Positions 9,894 to 51,850 of a DNA stretch of 64,000 nt are shown in pieces. Position 1 is the first letter of the stretch. Every line of letters starts with the position of its first letter. Below the pieces are notes generated by a model. That model ran no database searches. It had not been told where the DNA came from and was given only the letters and a program-made list of their open reading frames with translations. Both the position numbers and the translations under genes were made by a program. The stretch comes from Hesseltinella vesiculosa (taxonomy: Eukaryota > Mucoromycota > Mucoromycetes > Mucorales > Cunninghamellaceae): positions 115,815 to 179,814 of the forward strand of contig MCGT01000044.1 in NCBI GenBank assembly GCA_002104935.1. The letters run 5' to 3'.

Positions 9894-10622
9894 ACTATCC
9901 CTCCATCTGTAAAATTACTACTTCATTACTGTGAAAATAATATATTGCACAAGCATCTACTACCTAAATGGAAATGAATATGTTAGTTTTGATATCAGGT
10001 ACAATTCACGTAGGACCGCACACCAAATGAGAGAGAGAGGGGGGGGGCATACACCGTCCGGCAGTTTTTTTATGATACGGTGTGGGTATCGACGCCCCGC
10101 TCAGGCCCTGTCTCAAGTACGGATCACCGTGTGCCACCAACCTGGCTGGCGCGCATCGACTAAATTTTTTTTGGAGAGAGAGTGAGATCCAACAATGGCC
10201 ATGAAAAATACAGTGTTTTGCGTTTAAAAATACTGTATTTATTTTTTTGTATGAAAGGGTCAGTTATTTATTTACAACTGGACAATTCAACTTATTAACT
10301 TGTTATATGCAAAAGCGGGCAGGGGGTAAACAGCGTTAGGAGAAAACCTTTGGTCGTATCAAGGCAATGGCGGAATTTTCTTCTTCACATTGGACGTGAC
10401 ACAGGGGCACTCAACAAACAGAAAACAAGACACAAGACCAGGGGTCGAACACAGAAAGGGACAAGGCACAGGAGGAGGTGGTTCTGGCCATTCGGCAATA
10501 CATCCACCCCCGCCAACCAATTATGAGCTCCTGTCCCTGTAATTCATTTCTAAGCCGACAAAGGTTTGACTGTATTTCTGCTTTCAGCCATTTACCTTTT
10601 TTTAACTTATACTTAGCTTATA
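9894..10622. other. Intergenic region between the ABC transporter and MSK1
   Basis: Transporter 3' end and MSK1 upstream region. It contains a GA/G-rich run near 10028-10048 and AT-rich sequence near 10200-10280. Its short open frames resemble no family; nothing else is recognised. Confidence 0.5.
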
Positions 10623-12573
10623 ATGACAACAGTCCGTGTTCTCCCTCGTTTCCGAAGGGCACAGCATTTTACATCCCCAGATTTTATGATCCTAAAGCGA
10701 AATCTCTCAGTGACAGGTACACATGTTCATAGATATGCATATAGTGTATATGTCTGTACGCAAAAAAGCTGATCAGCCTCCGATTAATTCTTTGAAATCT
10801 TGAATATAGTGCCCCTGATGAATGATAGGCCCTTGGACAAGAAAATAGAATACCCTCGGTTTATCCGCGATGTTAAACATGGAAGATACATATCAGCAAC
10901 AGACCTCTTACGAATGAACGATCGGCTGAAGTCTGGCGAGAAGCAATCGGAAACTGTCACATTGACTGGTCGCATACAATCGAAACGTGAATCTAGTAGC
11001 AAACTGGTATTTTATGACATTGTCCATAATGGCGAGTCCGTTCAGGTGGTTGCTTCGCGTAGTCGATTTTCACAGCCTGATGCTTTCACTGCAACGAATC
11101 TCAAAGTCTCACGTGGTGATATTTTACGTATGTCAAAATGAACGCTGGCTCGGATCCCGACTCGATTTTTAGGGGTTGTTTTTCGCTCACTTCCTGTTTC
11201 TGAAATTTAGGGTTTACTGGCGTTATTGGCAAAACTAATCATGGTCAGATCAGCCTCTTTGCAAGTGATTTGGATGTGATGACACCTTGCCTACATGATA
11301 TCCCGAAAACAAATATCAGAGACCCTGTAAGTATGCAGTCTTTTGAACGTAGTGATACTGACGACCCAGTCTTCGCCATTTAGGAAAAAAGGTTTCGACA
11401 ACGCTATTTGGATATGCTCGTGAATCGTGAACCTGAAGCGCTTTTGCGAACAAGAGCCAAGGTAAGAGTTAATGGACCTAACATAAAATGACAACATAGA
11501 TCTCACAAAGGAAGCGCTTCATGAAATAACATGATAGATCGTTCGATACTTGCGAGATTTCTTGGACAGGCGGGACTTCGTCGAGGTTGAGACGCCCGTA
11601 TTAGTAGCGAATGCTGGCGGTGCGTCTGCAAAGCCCTTCACTACCAAAGCAAATGCACTCAGCATGGAATTGAGCTTACGTATTGCTCCAGAACTTTTCC
11701 TCAAGGAACTTGTCATTGGCGGCTTGGATCGAGTATACGAAATTGGCAAGCAATTCCGCAATGAAGGCATTGATGCAGATCACAACCCCGAGTTCACTAC
11801 CTGCGAATTCTACCAAGCATATGGCAATTTGGATTCCTTGATGGATGATACTGAAACACTACTGTCAGGTATACGTGAAGGAGAGGACAAACAGGGGACC
11901 ATGAATTCACCTATGATTATCGTATTGGCTAGGCATGGTAAAGCATATCACAGGCAATAACTCAGTAGAAAAGAACAACGAAACCATCCGCTTTGACCGC
12001 CCATTCGCAAGGATCGACGTCACAGGCTACCTGGACAATCACTTTGGCCTGCAGACTGACTCAGTATCTTCGATGGATGCCAAGGCTCTAAAGCTGCTAT
12101 GTATTGATAATGGAATCCCTATTCAACATCCTTTCACCGAAGCCCGTATCTTGGATAAAATCATCTCCACCATTATCGAACCCCAATGCATACAACCCAC
12201 CTTTTTATTCAACCATCCGCTGAGTTTGAGTCCTTTGGCGAAGGATTACTACCACAATGGTAATCGTGTGGCAGCAAGGTTCGAGCTATTCGTTGGTAAA
12301 AAAGAAATTGTCAATGCCTATGAAGAACTAAATGACCCTGCGGAGCAACGGTTACGATTTGAGCAACAGCAACATGATCGGCAACAAGGAGACTTTGAAG
12401 CCCCAGCGCCGGACATGGCCTTTTGCGAGGCCCTCGAATACGGCCTCCCCCCAACAGCAGGTTGGGGTATGGGAATAGACCGACTTGTGCAATTATTGAC
12501 AGGCAAGCAACATATCCGTGAAGTCATCTCATTCCCCTTGGTTCGGAGTTTGGAAAACCACCACCAAAAATAA
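10623..12573 (+). CDS. MSK1: Mitochondrial lysyl-tRNA synthetase
   Basis: Class II synthetase of the mitochondrial Msk1 type. Exon 1 (10623-10716) encodes a basic, acid-poor presequence starting [16 protein letters not shown] and is spliced over intron 10717-10809 to the body. An OB-fold anticodon-binding domain ([19 protein letters not shown]) is followed by motif 1 ([12 protein letters not shown]), motif 2 ([13 protein letters not shown]...EFTTCEFY) and motif 3 ([19 protein letters not shown]). All three are intact. Further introns lie near 11130-11210, 11325-11384, 11462-11537 and 11869-11933. The start was chosen because it alone supplies the transit peptide and splices in frame; a downstream ATG (10821) would lack it. 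It supplies Lys-tRNA for mitochondrial translation, like the mitochondrial ribosome recycling factor at 43.1 kb. Confidence 0.92.
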
Positions 12574-12850
12574 AAAGCCTGCGACGAGAGAAGTGGATAT
12601 TCGTCGTTTGACTTTTCATCTCGTAATCTGGAAGTATCATGCTCCACGTATTCCTTGTATTCTTGAAGGTTGAAAAGGTAGTAAATAAACAAATCCTTCC
12701 TACAGACTTTGCAGGAGAGAGAGAGGGTGTCAGAGGCAAGAAAAACAACGAGCGGGGTTTATTGAAAAGGGTGCTGCGCGTTCAAGGAGTTGTTTTTCTT
12801 TCTTTACTTTTTTTTTTACAACCTTGCTTCAGCATTTATTTACATTTAAA

Positions 12851-15800
12851 ATGGGGCGTAATATAAGAAGAAGGCAATTACGAATAGATGCAAATAAGAC
12901 TTGGCTGTATAACTTGAAAATGAGGAAATATTACATTCTCAAAGGTAAATCCTATTATTGACCTTGTTTGTTTATTTTTAAAACGCGTTGCTTCATGATC
13001 TCATTCTCTTCCATTAGGTTTAAAGTGTACATTGTGCCATGGATTAGGGCACAAGCGAGCAGATTGTCCTTTCAACCGTTAGTATTGATCGCCCCTACAT
13101 TGCCAGTTTCTAACATTTACTTTTAAAGGTGGCAAACGAAAGTCCAAAACCCAGCTCAAAAGGGCCAACAAGCTTCTACGTAAGACTGGCTCCATGGCCC
13201 GCAAGGAAAAGCAAAAGAACCCTGATGGAAAAAAAAGGGCCAAGAAATTCAAGTTGAAGGATCTCCAGTCTCTCTTGCTTGGTACCAATTTCAATACCCG
13301 TGTTCGCAAGATATCTCTTTGTAATGCTCTTAACACGGCCCAAGACAATATCCAAGACCAACGCCAAGCAAAGCTGGACGTCCAAGAAACCATCCTCCTA
13401 TGGGTCGATCACATCCGCTATGTCTCCATCTGCACCCAGTCGTTCTTCAACTATTATGTACTTCATGTCATGTCTGAGGGTTCTGTGGTCAACGATACTG
13501 TATTCTGTAAAGACTTTTTCTATGGGATCTGCCAGCTGGTGACTGACAAGCCTGTGACCTCACCCAACTCGAACATACCTGATCCTACATCAATTTATCA
13601 CCATTACCAGTCTCTCCTGGGTGACCACCGCTTCGAATTATATTGGATCAAGGGTGCTAGTAGCATGATTTCTGAAATGGCGGATGAGTTAGCCCAAATC
13701 AATCTCTTGGCTGTGACTGAACGTTTTGAAGAAAAGTGTATCAAGTATATTCGCTTTCGCTTGGTCAACACCCTCAAGGATCAGCTGTTTGATGGCCAGG
13801 TCAGTAAGAAAGAGAGAGAAAGTAAGAAGGCGCGAGTTGCTCACTTTTTTTTTTTGACATAGGAAATGCCAAAGTCCGGTTATATTATGAACGCATGCCA
13901 GAATATTTACGACACTGTCACCCGTCAAGAAAAAGTTGAACCACTGTCAGAAAATAGCCCCGATCTCTTGCGAACGATCGTCTCAACATTTATCTCAACG
14001 CTGAACTTTGGTCCAAGTCCAGTTACGCTGAAGGAACTTACTGCAAGTCCCGGAACATATTTGCAAGTACTTTACCGACTACTGCAAGAAATGGAACAAG
14101 GCAACGACCTGGAACCATATGAGAGGGGGCATGATCATGTACATGATCAAATGGACACAATCACCATGAAGCTCTTACTATCGTCTAACATGGACTATCA
14201 GGTGCTGCCTCGTCGCTGTCGCCAAAGAGTATTCAAGGGCATGATGCAATTACTGGAGCACCCAGACAATCCAATTGACATCCCCTGGAGTCTACCGGAA
14301 GAATTTAAGACCTGGCTGTCAGATCTCATCCTTGGCCTTCGTGTAAAGCTGGCAAACTCCAAGGCGAAACTGGCTGGCACTGACATATCAGCAGACCTTT
14401 GCTTCTCCTCCTCCACCATGAGGCAATCCAAGTCAACAGCCCTCTTTTCCCTTGTGCCGACTCTGTCCTTTCGTCGCCGGTTTATCACTTTGGATGCCTA
14501 CTCATTTTGGTCAATTCTCAAGCAAGCCGGTATAAACGTGACTGTGCCGTCGGGTGACCATTCTCATCCTTATATCCGCCTTGCTCGCGATGCCACTCTC
14601 TTTTTCACCTACCTGGACTTTCAGAAGGCTTATCTTCGAAAATGGTAACTGAGGAACATTGTGATGGCAGGAATCGTGACTGATTTTTTTTAGTACTGCC
14701 GCATTTTTGCATTATCCAACGCTCACTGAAACTGACAGCGACAGTGATGATGACGCTGGTGGTGCTGATCCCGATGCTGACAACGGTGATGCCGAAGATG
14801 ATAGTGGCAGTGTTACTGATGGAAATGCTAATGACATCGGCAACCCTGCTGACGGTTCTGATGGTGCTCACAATACCCCATCGGAGGGCGAAAGCGACAA
14901 TGGTGATCAAGATCAAGGCAGATATACTGACGAGACAATACGCCAGGACGATGGCAGCGATACTCAATTGAGTGAAATCGATAGTAGCGATGAAGAGGAG
15001 GATGATGATCCTGCCTCCTTGGTATTTTCCAACCGTGTTCGCACTGATGGGCTTCAATTGGAATTTATCTATGGCAAGCGCGCACCCCAAATTGAACTTC
15101 CCGATCTCAAAATGGACGACTTGCATGGTGAACCACAAGAACGTATGCAGCTGTATGGAGTCGATCCAGGACATAGTGAGCTTTACACATCTGCTCAAGA
15201 AGACAAGCACCTCCCGGGAAATGATCGCACTGCCCCCTGGCACTGAGCACAGCAGCAACAGCACCAACGGTTGGCATGGTCGGTACATGCGATTCTCGAA
15301 TAATGAATGGTTATCACTCTCTGGTCAACATGGACGCTCATGCAATCGCAAACGTTGGCTCAAAGATTCTGGCATGGAGGAGATCCTCACGCGTATACCA
15401 CCAGCAAAAACTAGCCATCCTGACCGCTTCATTCAGCGCACCATCTATGTATTCCAACACCTTGATGATATCACCGAACATTTTGCTGATGACTATAGCC
15501 TGCATCGGTTCCTGGACTATTGTGGGGACAAGAAGATGTGCGCAGAAGTCGTCAACCACTTCGTCCATGGTGGTAACAAGTACAAACACCAGAAGGAAGA
15601 CTATGATAGGTATGCGCTACACAAAAAAAGGTGTGATGCCTGGACTAATTTTTTTTATAGCCGCAAACTTCCAGTGACTGCCTATGGTGGTGCATTGTCT
15701 GCGCAACCCGTAGAGGGAAAAAGTCCACTCGCTCCGGAAAAGTGTACAAAGCACTCAAAATAGCGGAAAAGCAAGGGTTACTTCTTGTTACAAAAGCAAA

Positions 15801-16143
15801 TGAATACAACACAAGCAAGGTAAATCATGAGGAGAGGGAAAAATGAAGCGCAAAATGACCTTTTTATTCTATCTCATTTTTTTTACAGGTCTGTCCAATG
15901 TGTGATGAAAAAGACCTTGAACACAAGACCGTCGGTGACCCATTCCTGCGAGGTGCAAGCATGTCTTTGTGGTCGGTTCTGCAGTGCCAACACTGTAAAA
16001 TCAACTGGGACAGGGACAAGCTTGCGGCTTGGAATATGTTGCGTCTTGGCAAGATTGCCCCACCACGATCCACCTCCGCCGACCAATCATCACCACACCA
16101 ACAAAATTCAGCATTTGCTTCTTCGTCTCGGGACCCTCACTAA
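12851..16143 (+). pseudogene. Fanzor (eukaryotic TnpB-like RNA-guided nuclease), two frame breaks
   Basis: Predicted product of about 978 residues, read through two one-base frame breaks. In order: start MGRNIRRRQLR; a CCHC knuckle (CTLCHGLGHKRADC, C-X2-C-X4-H-X4-C) at about residues 34-47; a lysine/arginine-rich stretch; a long alpha-helical region; a D/E/S-rich acidic stretch (14,730-15,010); RuvC-I motif YGVDPGHSELYTSA (Asp codon 15163-15165); a segment with IPPAKTS; NEYNTSK (Glu codon 15802-15804); a zinc ribbon CPMC...CQHC; and DRDKLAAWNM (Asp 16015-16017). This order is that of fungal Fanzors, eukaryotic relatives of IS200/IS605-type TnpB. Six introns: 12945-13017, 13078-13128, 13800-13862, 14645-14693, 15610-15660 and 15820-15888. 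The frame moves by +1 near 15,180-15,240 (C-run at 15233-15237) and returns near 15,715-15,725 (A-run). It lies 277 bp after MSK1 and 241 bp before the DDRGK gene. Family assignment is strong; activity is doubtful unless the breaks are sequence errors. Confidence 0.85.
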
Positions 16144-16163
16144 CGAATATCTTTACCTCGCTG

Positions 16164-16235
16164 GCCAATAAACCAGCTTATTTACGTAAGCCTGAGGCAA
16201 AATGTGAAGAGGAAATGCTGATTTTTTTTATTGGC
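16164..16235 (+). repeat. 9-bp inverted repeat just after the Fanzor stop
   Basis: GCCAATAAA (16164-16172) and its exact reverse complement TTTATTGGC (16227-16235) are separated by 54 bases and begin 21 bases after the stop. The left arm includes an AATAAA that may be the polyadenylation signal. In Fanzor and TnpB loci the guide RNA often lies at the 3' end of the gene, so this is one place to look for it. The pairing may be chance. Confidence 0.35.
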
Positions 16236-16384
16236 AGGTTTGTCATGAAAATGAATAAAGTAAGTTTAGATGAAAATAATTCAAGCGCCTGATTGGCTAC
16301 TAACATTGGATTTTTTTCTGAAGTGTCTTGTGTCGGGATCTTCTCGTATTCTTTGCACTTCTGTGTTAGTACCGGCACAGCAAA

Positions 16385-17455
16385 ATGGCAAACGACATCG
16401 CAATTATATTCATACCCATCGCCATTTGCCTCGTTGGCATTCGCTTTCTATTAACCTTAATGGCACAAAGACAACAGCATCGGCAAAGCCACGGTAATTG
16501 GAGGTGAATCGCTAAACAGGGAATGTTGCATTCTCATAAGCATGTTTCAAGGCGTTCTTCATCTAAATGACGACGATCCAGCTGAATTTTTGCAGGATGA
16601 CATACAGGATGATCTGGATGGAGATTTCAACATCGTTGCCGACGACGACATTCCAAATGAAGGATCCTCGACTGGGAGAGCAGTCAAGAAAGTTGGGAAA
16701 AAACGTGGCGAGAAACTGCGACGCAAAGAGCAAATACGTCAGTACCGCGAGGTAAGCGCAGGATGATGCACAATACATGCATAGGTAACGTTGGTGCCTT
16801 TGTAGTACATGGACCAGCAACGAGAAATGCAACGTCAGCAAGACTTGATTCTTGAAGAGCAATACCGACAGCGAAGAGCTGAAGAGTCATTACGGCAGGC
16901 TGATGAGGTATGATACTTGCTCGGTTAATAGTTTTCTGCATAGCCAATCGTTTCATTTAAACGTAGCTGGACATCATTCGTAAAAACCTAGCGAAGCTAG
17001 CAAAGCAAGAGACAAAGCAAAAGGACACACTACGAAGACAAGAAGAAAAGAAGCGAAATCAAGATGCTCAGCAATTCGCAAAATGCCGTGCCAAGGTTAA
17101 GGAGCATGTACAGGTAAACGCCACTCTCGTTCATGGACCACGACATGGCTTTATTGCTTTAAATGGCCATCAATTTATTTTTTATTTTATTATTGTGAAG
17201 AAAAACAAGATCAGTACAATGGAAAATTTGGCGAAACAGCTCTGGTTGACGGAGGAGCAGACCAGAAACATCCTGCAGAAACTCTGCTCCACTGACCCAT
17301 ATTTCCAACTGTGTCTCTGGTCTGAAGATAATAACACATTCCTAAACGTACAAGCTGATGATTACACAGCCATCCATGAATTTCTCGAAACTAACCAAGG
17401 CAGGATATTGGTACGACAAGTGTTAGAGGACCCTGCAAGTCCACTGCTGCGCTAA
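16385..17455 (+). CDS. DDRGK1/UFBP1-like UFMylation adaptor at the ER
   Basis: About 270 residues in five exons. The N-terminus is one hydrophobic anchor (IAIIFIPIAICLVGIRFLL) directly after the start, then an acidic stretch, a basic block (VKKVGKKRGEKLRRKE), a charged coiled coil and a C-terminal winged-helix/PCI-like domain (KISTMENLAKQLWL...NTFLNVQADDYTAIHEFL...RILVRQVL). This order matches DDRGK1, the membrane anchor of the UFL1 ligase complex that attaches UFM1 to ribosomes and ER proteins. The DDRGK residues before the F-x-x-V strand read S-E-D-N-N here. First intron 16494-16551; the others follow Glu, Glu and Gln codons near 16751, 16907 and 17113. Most Dikarya lack UFMylation, so this points to an early-diverging fungus. 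Family assignment rests on architecture and C-terminal similarity. Confidence 0.8.
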
Positions 17456-17479
17456 TGAGATGATCCAGGCGGGCCACTC

Positions 17480-17482
17480 TCG

Positions 17483-17516
<34 letters not shown>

Positions 17517-17535
17517 AATAAAAAAATAAAAAGTG
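17480..17535. terminator. Shared 3' region of two convergent genes
   Basis: The DDRGK gene (stop 17455) and the CM1 gene (stop 17572, minus strand) converge with 116 bases between stops. A run of about 29 T and then an A-rich stretch fill this gap and offer A-rich 3' end signals on both strands. Confidence 0.45.
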
Positions 17536-17571
17536 GACGTTGTCGAACGTTCGTTTTTATTTCAAAAATCC

Positions 17572-20179
17572 TTAAAAACCGCGAACGGAATCCATAGACC
17601 TTCGAAGCACCACGTCTTCAGTTGCCTGACGCCGCAGCACATTTTCCAATACTTCCTTTCGTTCCTTGTGATTCTTAGAATGAGGAAACAGTTAGAAGCA
17701 CGGAAATAGGAAATAAACAGTTACAGATACCTCAATTCTTTCCAGTGTTCTGGTGATCATGCTGTCACGACGTACTAGCAATTGCTCCATTCGTCGCAAA
17801 TCTTGCAGAGATTTTGAATATTCCTTATCCAACTTTTCACTGAGCTTCTTTTCTTCTGACAGCAAGTTGTCTCGGTCCTCAAGTTCTTGATATAGTTCTT
17901 GATTCAGCTTGTTTAATAGTCTAGTTGTTTTCTCTAGGCGGCCAATATCATTGCTCTAATTTGGCCGTTCGTTAGAAAAAGCTATCCCTTTGGAAAAATT
18001 CATATAATAGCACCTACCTCAGAAGATTCCAAAAGCGATGTCAGGATCCCATTGCGTTTGCGGATGGTCTGCAAGTGCTGTTCCAGAAGGTGCTGATTGT
18101 TTCGCTGGCTCTGTAATGCTTCGTTGGCCGAGTCCCGTTCTTTGAGCAATCGCTCGTTGACTTCACGGAGTTGCCTGCAGTCCATGGTACTTGTGCTGGC
18201 TGTGCCATCGGAGGAAGTTGAGCAGATAAAGCGATTCAGCTGATCTTCCAAATCTTTGACATCTTCTTGGTAGAGCGCTTTTTCATGTTGCATAGCATCC
18301 TGCTGAGCTTCCAAGTGACCTTCCAGCTGAGCGATCTGAATCTCACGCTCACGCAGTTCTTGCTCCATCTGTTGAAGTTTTGAGTCGAGAAGCTGTAGAT
18401 CTGAGTCATAGCGCTGCTTTGTCTGCTCATGTATCTGCTGCAAGCTGTGGGTATCGTGATCTTTGGTTTTCATTGCCTTCGTCATCATGGTAGAAAACTT
18501 GGCTTCCAAGTTGGTAAGTTCGACTTCTTGTTGCTTCTGTGCTTGTTCTAGTTGCTGGATGTAGGACCGTATTGTGCTGTTCTTGTCGTTGAGAATGGTA
18601 TCAAAATCGGCTTGCGCCTTTTTTTGCTCCGTACGCGCTTTGTCCGCCTGGGCTTCTAAACGTTCTGAATGTGCAACCAGTTTCTCCACTTCGCTTTCTA
18701 GCGCAATTAAATCTTGTTCACGCTGGCTGAGTGTTTCTCGTAGTTCCTTGTTCACGTCTTGCTGCTGATACAATCGGTCCTCCAACCCCCTGGACTTGAC
18801 ATCCAAACGTCGGCATTTCGACTCGATTTGCTCCCGGGCCATTTCCTTCTCGTCCAATAACCGCGCAGCTTGTTCGCGTTCGCCCAAAAGATCTCGTACT
18901 TCTTTTGATTTCTGTTGAAGCTGGGATAGCGCCTGGTCGATATGTTGGTTTTCGTTCAGCTTAGCCTCAGTGTGTTGCTGGATCACAGTACGAAGTCGGT
19001 GAATGGTATGCTGCTGTTCCTGAACAGTTTGCTTTGATTGCAACCAGCAGGTCTTATAATAATCTGTATCGGAAGGTTGTTGAGTTTGATTGGGGTGCTG
19101 ATATGGTGATTGTTGGTGAAACTGAGACGAGGAGGAAGTGGGAGATGGTAAAACGGACTGTTGCTGGAGAGGTGAGGACGGCACAGATTTATTAGATAGA
19201 CGATGGGATGCAACCAGGCGTACTCTTGCGTTTTCCATTCGTTGCTCTGCAATCATTTTTTGAAGTTGCTCGTTTTCACTCCGGAATGCATCTGCTGTTG
19301 CCAACGCTTCTTCGTATTCTCGTTTTTCGTCGACGCTCATGCCTTGACGTTGCTGTAAGATTGCCATCGCACCGTTCAAATCCAATATCATTTTTTTGTA
19401 CTTTTTCAATTCCTGGCCAAGAGTTTGAATGTTAACCTTTAAATCAATATTCTACAGGTATACAAATTTCAAAAATAAGCGAGCACGAACGACTTGACTC
19501 TACACTAATATACCTCTCGAATGGCGTTATCGTTTTGATCGGGAGATAGCTCGTCCAATCTCTTTTCTAAGTAATAAATCTTCATTTTCAGTCCAAAATT
19601 GTCCTTTCTTAGGACATCAATTGTCTAGCAAAGAAATCAGTATCGTTTTATTTTCTAACAACCTGACCTGCGTACTTTTTCCTGTTCGTTCAGAGTGAGT
19701 GTCGTTGAGCGGCGGCTGTGTGCAAAGCTGCCTTTATCGGTTGCAAACGAAGGCGTCTCTGGCTGAATATCTTGCGAAGCAAGTTTTAGTGATGTTACAT
19801 CCACGCTGGCACAAATGTTTTCATGTTGCGAATTTGATTTGAATAGAAGAGCAGTTGGGTCAGCGGGTGAAAAATCCTTGTCCAAAGTACCAAAGTGGTT
19901 CGTTCTGGGTGCCAAAGACATGGCTTGTTGCTGGCGTGCCGTTAAACTTTGTCTGCTCTGCTTTGGCGATGGTATTGAATGAAGAGGCACAGGGGAATGC
20001 GTCATTTGTATTTCATCGTTCTGAGGGAGTGGCTGTTGGCTTGGCAGTTCCTCCATCAAGCATGAAGGTGGATCTGTTTCCTCCAGCAAGGAAATTTGTG
20101 TAAAGGATGTTTCCGACAAGTACGACCCAATGGTTATCGTATCATGTTGGTCATAATTGGTATCAAGGTATCGTGCCAT
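17572..20179 (-). CDS. CM1-domain coiled-coil protein of microtubule organising centres
   Basis: Six-exon gene. A low-complexity N-terminus of about 170 residues ends LTLNEQEK and is spliced to TIDVLRKDNFGLKMKIYYLE, a match to the centrosomin motif 1 (CM1). CM1 is found in centrosomin, CDK5RAP2, Spc110, Pcp1 and Mto1, where it recruits and activates the gamma-tubulin complex. A long coiled coil follows (18,000-19,410; rich in Q, E, L and K, broken by a P/Q/S-rich linker near 19,070-19,200), then two short exons with more heptads ending SMDSVRGF. The start at 20179 is the first ATG and precedes CM1. Whether it acts at the spindle pole (Pcp1/Spc110 role) or at interphase centres (Mto1 role) cannot be told; no calmodulin-binding PACT-like end is evident. 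Confidence 0.8.
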
Positions 20180-50891: not shown

Positions 50892-51044
50892 GTTTGCCTG
50901 TGAAAAAGGGTGGAAAAAAAAAAAGGGACGAAAATTTGTCTTTCGGAAACCAAAATCTCGTCTCCGCCCAATGAAAACGCAAGAGCTCCACTGTCAACAC
51001 GGGAAATGTAAAATGATGAGCCAATTAAAAACGTTGCAATAATG

Positions 51045-51850
51045 CTATACTAAAGTGAGAAAGCGCGAGTAATCCAACGTAGAGGGCACCAGCTCCGTTT
51101 TTGTTTCTGCTGTGTTGTCCATCTCACCCCCTTCCAGCTTTTGTGACGGGACGAAGAGATGTGACAAAGCGTCAGGTAAGACATTGGTAGCTCGAGGGAT
51201 GTAGGCTACGTCAAAGTCATATTGTAAGATTGTGTCAAGCCAGTTAACCATCATCATAGAATTTGCGATTTTCTGCGTGTGGAAGTACACGAGTGCGCGA
51301 TGGTATGTAAATAAGGTAAAGTGGCGTCCCCAGAGGAATTTGTGGAATTTGGTTAACGCAAACACGATACCGAGTAACTCTCTTTTTGTTGTAGAGTAAT
51401 TACGCTCGGACTTGTTTAGTACCCGAGCCATGAAGCGAAGGTATTTTATATCTTTTTTTTTTTGCAGCTCGACTAATTTTTTTCTTGCATCTCCTGAAGA
51501 AAAAGATGAAGGGTCCTTAGTTTTAATTTGGAATAGAACGGCTCCTATGCCATCATTCGAGGCGTCTGTGGCCACAAAAAATAGTAAACGATCATCAGGA
51601 GGGCTAATGAGAGAAGCATTCGTGAGAGCCTTTTTTAACTTGAAGAAACTCTCATTGCTTCCTTTCCCGTTTTAGGGATTGGCCAGCTATCGACGTTTGT
51701 CAATTTACGAGTATCGAGTTGGACACCTTGTTTTCCAACTTGGAACACGAGCATGACCAAGTTGTTGGTAAAAAAAGTTTTCCCAGACGTGGAGTGCTTC
51801 CTCGAGTCACTCGAGTTAGTGGTATTTTCAAGCAACCCCAAAATGGAGGA
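51045..51850 (-). pseudogene. Fragment of a Ty3/gypsy pol (RT end and RNase H)
   Basis: Minus-strand frames encode the end of reverse transcriptase (FTNNLVMLVFQVGKQGVQLD, SWPIPKTGKEAMR) and an RNase H domain (VATDASNDGIGAVLFQ, SERNYSTTKRELLGIVFAL, DVAYIPRATNVLPDALSHLF). A frame break lies near 51,580-51,640. RT motifs with YxDD, integrase and LTRs are absent. The sequence differs clearly from the intact element at 52.9-58.0 kb, so it is another lineage. Confidence 0.8.

Follow-up and report, generated by a model that had tools for sequence, protein, structure and literature searches.

The 64,000-nucleotide stretch of DNA analysed here (hereafter the window; G000:C39:115815-179814) belongs to the genome of Hesseltinella vesiculosa (Mucorales, Cunninghamellaceae; 27.05 Mb in 85 contigs). 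Between genes for a tRNA synthetase and a DDRGK-like protein it contains a seven-exon gene related to Fanzor (TnpB-like) nucleases, relatives of CRISPR-type enzymes that cut DNA; the gene lies inside a copy of a dispersed repeat, family A (Table 1). An earlier note made from the sequence alone (the original prediction) had described a gene standing by itself, without an evident host transposon. We find instead that the locus very probably holds a degenerate member of a family of non-autonomous DNA transposons, present in at least 17 copies, and that the one recognisable protein encoded by this element is a large Fanzor1.

The family A element and its copy in the window

A search of the same genome with the last exon of the gene yielded 45 places at E ≤0.001, 17 of them at 89–100% protein identity, and the window copy together with the 16 other family A copies makes up this number. 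In a comparison of window positions 10001–20000 with the 16 copies, matches were confined to 12591–16330, with 92–99% identity per aligned piece, mostly about 95%. L017 and L020 align from 12734 only, L017 also being without the middle part; L022 stops at 16241, without the last ~85 bp, and L024 stops at the end of its contig. A 26-base right-terminal pattern, allowing up to three mismatches, has 15 matches in the genome, all of them in family A copies, and the 3' non-coding region is found at 16 places. Full-length copies are about 4.05 kb. They have a conserved left end about 250–280 bp beyond the point where the window copy begins, so that the latter is 5'-truncated.

Compared with 14 other copies (excluding L017, where the region is missing, and L024, which has its own gap there), the window copy has two one-base frameshifts and an in-frame deletion in the tail. 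The joined exons have 14 stops in total, the first after 719 residues. Due to the two frameshifts, translation ends before the alternative catalytic Glu, the zinc ribbon and the last Asp, and no open frame passes through all three catalytic residues. Judged from its sequence as assembled, the window copy encodes a product of at most 719 residues and no nuclease.

Full frames of 989–991 residues, each in seven exons, are retained in six of the 17 copies (L009, L015, L020, L021, L022, L023). In the 15 pairs of these intact copies, the mean non-synonymous divergence (dN) is 0.0144 and the mean synonymous divergence (dS) 0.0506, and their ratio of 0.285 indicates purifying selection on the protein while family A spread.

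Table 1. Features of the family A copy in the window (window positions; ~, approximate).
Feature	Position	Strand	Basis
Family A Fanzor element copy, 5'-truncated	12591–16327	+	blastn against 16 other copies, end sequences; left boundary good to a few bases
Exon 1 (ATG)	12851–12944	+	intron 1 GT–AG in 17/17 copies
Exon 2	13018–13077	+	exon joining, GT–AG introns
CCHC zinc knuckle CTLCHGLGHKRADCPF	13026–13073	+	pattern once in window; in 16/16 other family A loci
Exon 3 (N-terminal region)	13129–13799	+	exon joining
Exon 4	13863–14644	+	exon joining
Exon 5: acidic linker (about 14722–15016), RTDG motif, RuvC-I	14694–15609	+	exon joining, motifs
RuvC-I D-P-G (YGVDPGH)	15163–15171	+	sequence; aligned with SpuFz1 D383
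One extra C (frameshift)	15233 (~)	+	absent in 14/14 compared copies; stop TGA at 15244–15246
Exon 6	15661–15819	+	exon joining
One missing A (second frameshift)	15704–15705 (~)	+	present in 14/14 compared copies
Alternative catalytic Glu of NEYNTSK	15802–15804	+	aligned with SpuFz1 E541; invariant in four families
Exon 7	15889–16143	+	exon joining
C4 zinc ribbon CPMC...CQHC	15892–15996	+	sequence; PF07282 above cut-off in spliced intact copy
RuvC-III Asp of DRDKL	16015–16017	+	aligned with SpuFz1 D606
33-bp in-frame deletion in tail	16058 (~)	+	14/14 compared copies without deletion
3' non-coding region; predicted guide RNA scaffold site	16144–16327	+	inferred from known Fanzors
Right terminus CTG[T/A/C]AGTGTC, then unrelated flank	16318–16327	+	same in 15/15 copies reaching end, window included

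The original prediction correctly gave the order of the C-terminal motifs (YGVDPGH, NEYNTSK, CPMC...CQHC, DRDKLAAWNM) and the number of introns, six, all of them GT–AG in the window copy. Its single frame of about 980 residues does not survive the two shifts, and its stand-alone gene proves to be one of 17 copies of a dispersed repeat. The distances that it gave to MSK1 and DDRGK1 (277 and 241 bp) fit as distances from gene to gene, and the neighbours do resemble a tRNA synthetase and a DDRGK protein, but the picture of a solitary gene between housekeeping genes has to be given up. The left neighbour is a class II D/K/N tRNA synthetase (PF00152, E 1.1e-33), the right one a DDRGK-like protein (PF09756, E 9.5e-5, 22.6 bits, under the cut-off of 27.8), and the repeat spans most of the gap between them, leaving 17 bp after the stop codon of the synthetase gene and 57 bp in front of the putative start codon (ATG) of the DDRGK-like gene.

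GC–AG introns occur in L016 (intron 5) and L019 (introns 4 and 5), the junctions in other copies having been set via the alignment. Intron 5 of L021 (L021:5457-5507) has 51 bases and contains neither a frame change nor a stop; if retained, it would lengthen the protein by 17 residues between the RuvC motifs without breaking it. Its removal by splicing is likely, because the frames of families B and C (see below) are interrupted at this position too.

The public gene model at the locus, DM01DRAFT_1176144 (P0002), is a 240-residue hypothetical protein at window positions of about 14990–15763; because of the frameshifts, approximately its first third and its last 20 residues are in a different frame from that of the intact copies.

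Assignment of the protein to Fanzor1

The spliced protein of the intact copy L021 matches the Pfam TNB domain PF07282 with 33.3 bits (cut-off 26.3), and the last exon of the window copy alone reaches 22.1 bits, under the cut-off. A profile built from four Hesseltinella families, A to D, each represented by the RuvC and ribbon parts of a single copy, matches SpuFz1 (E 4.8e-11), TnpB-like protein L79 (2.5e-4), PpFz1 (6.9e-4) and GtFz1 (1.1e-3). In the alignment, the first Asp, the alternative Glu, the TS pair, the four cysteines and the RD pair are kept in all four families. The three catalytic residues are aligned with chain positions 777, 935 and 1000 of SpuFz1. Subtraction of a constant 394 turns these into D383, E541 and D606, as given for this protein in PMC10432273.

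The pattern described for Fanzor1, D-X(125,275)-[TS][TS]XX-[C4 finger]-X(5,50)-RD (PMC3627910), is found in the L021 protein as D695, T893-S894, CPMC from 897, CQHC and R937-D938. Among the marks of Fanzor1 are DPG in RuvC-I and a Glu six residues before the ribbon (PMC10711439); correspondingly, the intact family A copies have VDPGH, and their Glu is six residues ahead of the ribbon (NE-YNTSKV-C). A TDG motif in the WED domain is also typical of Fanzor1 (PMC10711439), and RTDG, in a putative WED domain, precedes RuvC-I in families A, B and C.

Taken together, these sequence features support the family A protein, of about 990 residues, being a mucoromycete Fanzor1, with a predicted layout of N-terminal CCHC knuckle, N-terminal region, acidic linker and split RuvC with C4 ribbon. 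The original prediction had named it a mucoromycete Fanzor, and this name stands, given the PF07282 score of the intact copy, the profile matches to SpuFz1, PpFz1 and GtFz1, and the host; the alternative Glu that it had placed near the ribbon aligns with E541 of SpuFz1. In the profile search of the spliced protein, which it had proposed as a check, PF07282 is matched in the intact copy and the four-family profile finds Fanzor1; the single sequence finds none, and the TnpB models stay under their cut-off.

Several observations weigh against the assignment. The single intact protein matches no PDB chain at E up to 1 and, among the best 7996 word-sharing candidates of 5.8 billion, no protein at E 0.001; the NCBIfam TnpB models are far under cut-off (19.2 vs 100 bits for family A), and an AlphaFold model of exons 5–6, with intron 5 read through and five alignment rows, has a mean predicted local distance difference test score (pLDDT) of 45, too low for a judgement on an RNase H-like fold with REC and WED domains. 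The N-terminal open reading frame of a family D copy had no protein match in a single-sequence search either. Since searches with single sequences find nothing, the four-family profile was needed.

Of the known systems, SpuFz1 (Spizellomyces punctatus, SPu-1; PDB:8gkh) is comparable in the aligned D/E/D of RuvC and in the C4 ribbon, and SPu-1, like family A, carries one Fanzor gene in a multi-copy DNA transposon, with 17 full-length copies, nine of them intact (PMC3627910). However, SPu-1-1p has 633 residues in one uninterrupted frame, compared to about 990 residues, seven exons, a knuckle and an acidic linker in family A, and DPG of family A replaces DPN of SpuFz1. PpFz1 (Parasitella parasitica, PDB:9cf0), from the same fungal order, shares the Fanzor1 core; it has a RuvC insertion of ~100 residues, FRI (PMC11423790), compared with about 24 extra residues after RuvC-I in family A (see below). 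Descriptions of Fanzor elements in Rhizopus, Phycomyces and Mucor, whose ends are of more than one kind, date back to 2013 (PMC3627910); those named ROr, PBl and MCi are, by their description in this source, likewise mucoralean transposable elements with a Fanzor1.

In the public model of L024 (P0001, contig C25), the RuvC-I motif VDPGH is missing, apparently spliced out, so that motif-based surveys could miss such Fanzors.

The N-terminal zinc knuckle and the Fanzor families of the genome

Families B (L025–L029, about 98–99% alike), C (L030–L032, 96–99%) and D (L033, L034, L036–L038, 89–96%) were found in addition to family A, which has about 24 extra residues after RuvC-I relative to B and C. 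When the genome was scanned with PF07282, 46 places scored at E up to 0.001, including four under the Pfam cut-off. None is within 5 kb of the 45 last-exon places, which makes at least 91 separate Fanzor/TnpB-type ribbon places; these counts are lower bounds, and weak places may not be Fanzors.

The knuckle pattern CxxCx4Hx(3-9)CP[FY] is absent from all 20 mononucleotide shuffles of the window. Beyond family A, it is present at four out of five family B loci (L028 being too short), two out of three in family C, all five in family D, and at L035. In family D copy L036, a single open frame of 521 residues contains the knuckle, and the RuvC frame lies downstream of it.

A 28-residue knuckle query from family B matches 51 places in the genome at E up to 1. 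At 35 of them a ribbon place follows 2664–2736 bp downstream on the same strand; the other 16 have none, and for six of these (C4, C11, C34, C46, C62, C72) the contig ends within 3 kb downstream. The matches from rank 24 onward are weak (E 0.004 to 0.07) and depend mainly on the uniform distance to the ribbon. Seen from the 91 ribbon places, 35 are preceded by a knuckle match, 17 belong to family A, which is beyond the reach of the family B query, and the other 39 may be without a knuckle or may have one that is too diverged.

Compared with the PDB, the knuckle profile matches CIR1 (E 0.0076) and RECQL4 (0.015) and, more weakly, retroviral nucleocapsids, AIR2, lin-28 and unrelated zinc proteins; no Fanzor1 chain, PpFz1 included, is among its 44 matches at E up to 10. 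Our literature search, a partial survey that makes the word "unreported" provisional, retrieved no report pairing Fanzor with a zinc knuckle or CCHC, and no paper linking Fanzor with Mucoromycota by name. An N-terminal CCHC knuckle is possibly a new feature in Fanzor; family A itself, its intact copies and the conserved knuckle are what this analysis adds to the original prediction. We give close to an even chance to a wider proposal, namely, that a mucoralean branch of Fanzor1 has an obligatory N-terminal CCHC knuckle of the retroviral-nucleocapsid/AIR2/RECQL4 type at dozens of loci in one 27-Mb genome, and that through it the protein gains a step in the handling of RNA or DNA, such as capture of the guide RNA, melting of the target or chaperoning, absent from the solved Fanzor1 nucleases. 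Should the knuckle prove to act on RNA or on targets, programmable nucleases of eukaryotes would have an accessory domain not seen in the solved structures.

The gene in the window, taken alone, is an ordinary broken transposon copy, and the interest lies in the element family: one small genome has at least four families of closely related Fanzor elements that bear introns and are in part intact, and their intact and broken copies, which can be compared, offer material on the role of Fanzor for its transposon.

Many family B copies or knuckles are within a few kb of contig ends (C23, C29, C1, C10, C45, C54, C4, C46, C72, C34), which reflects either a failure of the assembly to join almost identical repeats or a true location close to the ends of chromosomes. 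No telomere repeats were seen in the loci examined for this, and hence we do not claim the copies to be telomeric.

Proposed mechanism, mode of movement and rival explanations

By analogy with SpuFz1, GtFz1 and PpFz1 (PMC10432273, PMC11423790), intact copies would make a guide RNA from the 3' end of the element, with the guide taken from the right flank, and the guided Fanzor would cleave an empty site that matches the guide and adjoins a short motif. Such cutting could help the element to persist or to spread, the knuckle may help to bind RNA or DNA, and family A would be moved in trans by a transposase from another element. In the SfAV Fanzor1, the guide RNA extends some 15 bases beyond the target duplication, and both the terminal repeat and the duplication are predicted to contribute to its scaffold (PMC10711439); a scaffold-type end as in SfAV would fit the constant TC or TA seen after AGTG in families A to C.

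This scheme has to face several results that speak against it. The 3' region of the element folds no better than shuffled sequences (z -0.72; 50 of 200 shuffles fold as well). In 14 of the 17 copies (L017, L022 and L024 dropped), divergence is 0.0230 in the coding sequence, 0.0222 in introns and 0.0292 in the 3' region, which is therefore not more conserved than the introns. No transposase was found for the element, and its assignment to a superfamily is uncertain: a Pfam scan of the exon frames and eight further, mostly antisense, frames revealed no transposase domain (best matches in the eight frames at E 0.07 to 0.18, under cut-off). There is also no recombinase domain in the element frames scanned; the Fanzor carrier, a bounded 17-copy repeat in a fungus, is a eukaryotic transposable element other than IS607.

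How the element moves can be suggested tentatively. One possibility, which we rate somewhat below even, is cut-and-paste transposition in which another element provides the transposase; the ends would be short, imperfect inverted repeats of the CACT type, and the duplication would always be 2 bp (TC in family A, TA in B and C). AGTG is followed by TC at all 15 family A right ends, and by TA at the five B and three C right ends seen; TA duplications flank SPu-1 and other Fanzor elements (PMC3627910), and a short element at L040, described below, has related ends. However, the outermost left bases differ among copies, as do the bases after AGTG in family D, and no partner transposase was found, the genome having been searched with the Helitron Rep model alone.

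Rolling-circle (Helitron2-like) or other one-ended movement, under which 5'-cut copies carry flanking duplications of variable length and full copies carry none, seems unlikely to us. It would explain the 13-bp flanking repeat of L012, whose left end is short by about 14 bases (unmatched flanks reach 12), and the repeats of 10 and 12 bp at family D copies L033 and L037 (unmatched B/D flanks reach 10), although only L012 and L037 exceed the control, and slightly. A similar pattern is known for CRe-1, 2 and 3 of Chlamydomonas, Helitron2-like elements with an intron-bearing Fanzor1, some copies of which have a shortened left end and a flanking repeat (PMC3627910), but in Hesseltinella a single Helitron Rep-like place was found in the genome at E up to 0.001 (L043, G000:C9:517097-517381), and the right and left ends have similar numbers of matches (16 vs 22), so the 3' ends are not in excess. 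Moreover, shared strings of no more than 6 and 5 bp are seen at the window copy and at L018, whose left ends are likewise cut or odd, and the left end assigned to family D is provisional. Other copies have shared flank strings of 4 to 10 bp, some of them T-rich, away from the ends. An element of the MuDR type was rejected, as no constant 9-bp duplication is seen at the ends of 13 family A copies, where the longest shared strings are 4 to 13 bp.

The decay of the window copy could in part be an artefact, the frameshifts being assembly errors and the locus another open, 5'-truncated transposon copy. Both one-base changes sit in short runs of C or A, where such errors are possible, and this tells against the decay, but neither is found in any of the 14 compared copies, and we consider the explanation improbable. 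Private changes point the same way: with 21 non-synonymous and six synonymous ones, the window copy leads in non-synonymous changes among the nine copies compared in this way (the window copy and eight others, with L021 as reference; seven further copies were outside the analysis), the others having 1 to 13. The non-synonymous/synonymous counts are 2/3 (L009), 3/8 (L015), 11/3 (L020), 5/5 (L022) and 8/5 (L023) in intact copies, and 1/0 (L010), 9/6 (L012) and 13/9 (L016) in copies that are not intact. The 11 to 3 of intact L020 is a similar ratio, and this favours the artefact. The truncation, the tail deletion and the private changes are independent of the frameshifts, but alone they would not stop the protein.

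A resident, possibly domesticated Fanzor gene serving the host at this locus is highly improbable and, together with the isolated-gene reading, is rejected: it would suit the tight placement between two conserved genes and the intact splice sites, but not a dispersed repeat with 16 other copies, nor a window copy with two frameshifts, a deletion, a truncation and the excess of private non-synonymous changes.

Two smaller relics of related sequence were noticed. Window positions 50998–51079 match the left end of family A once more (84% over 83 bases); this short relic has no other part of the element beside it, as far as was found. At L040:2533-2820, an element of ~280 bp has a family A-like left end starting CACTACCACGGG and, as judged by eye, a related right end; it is possibly a miniature non-autonomous relative.

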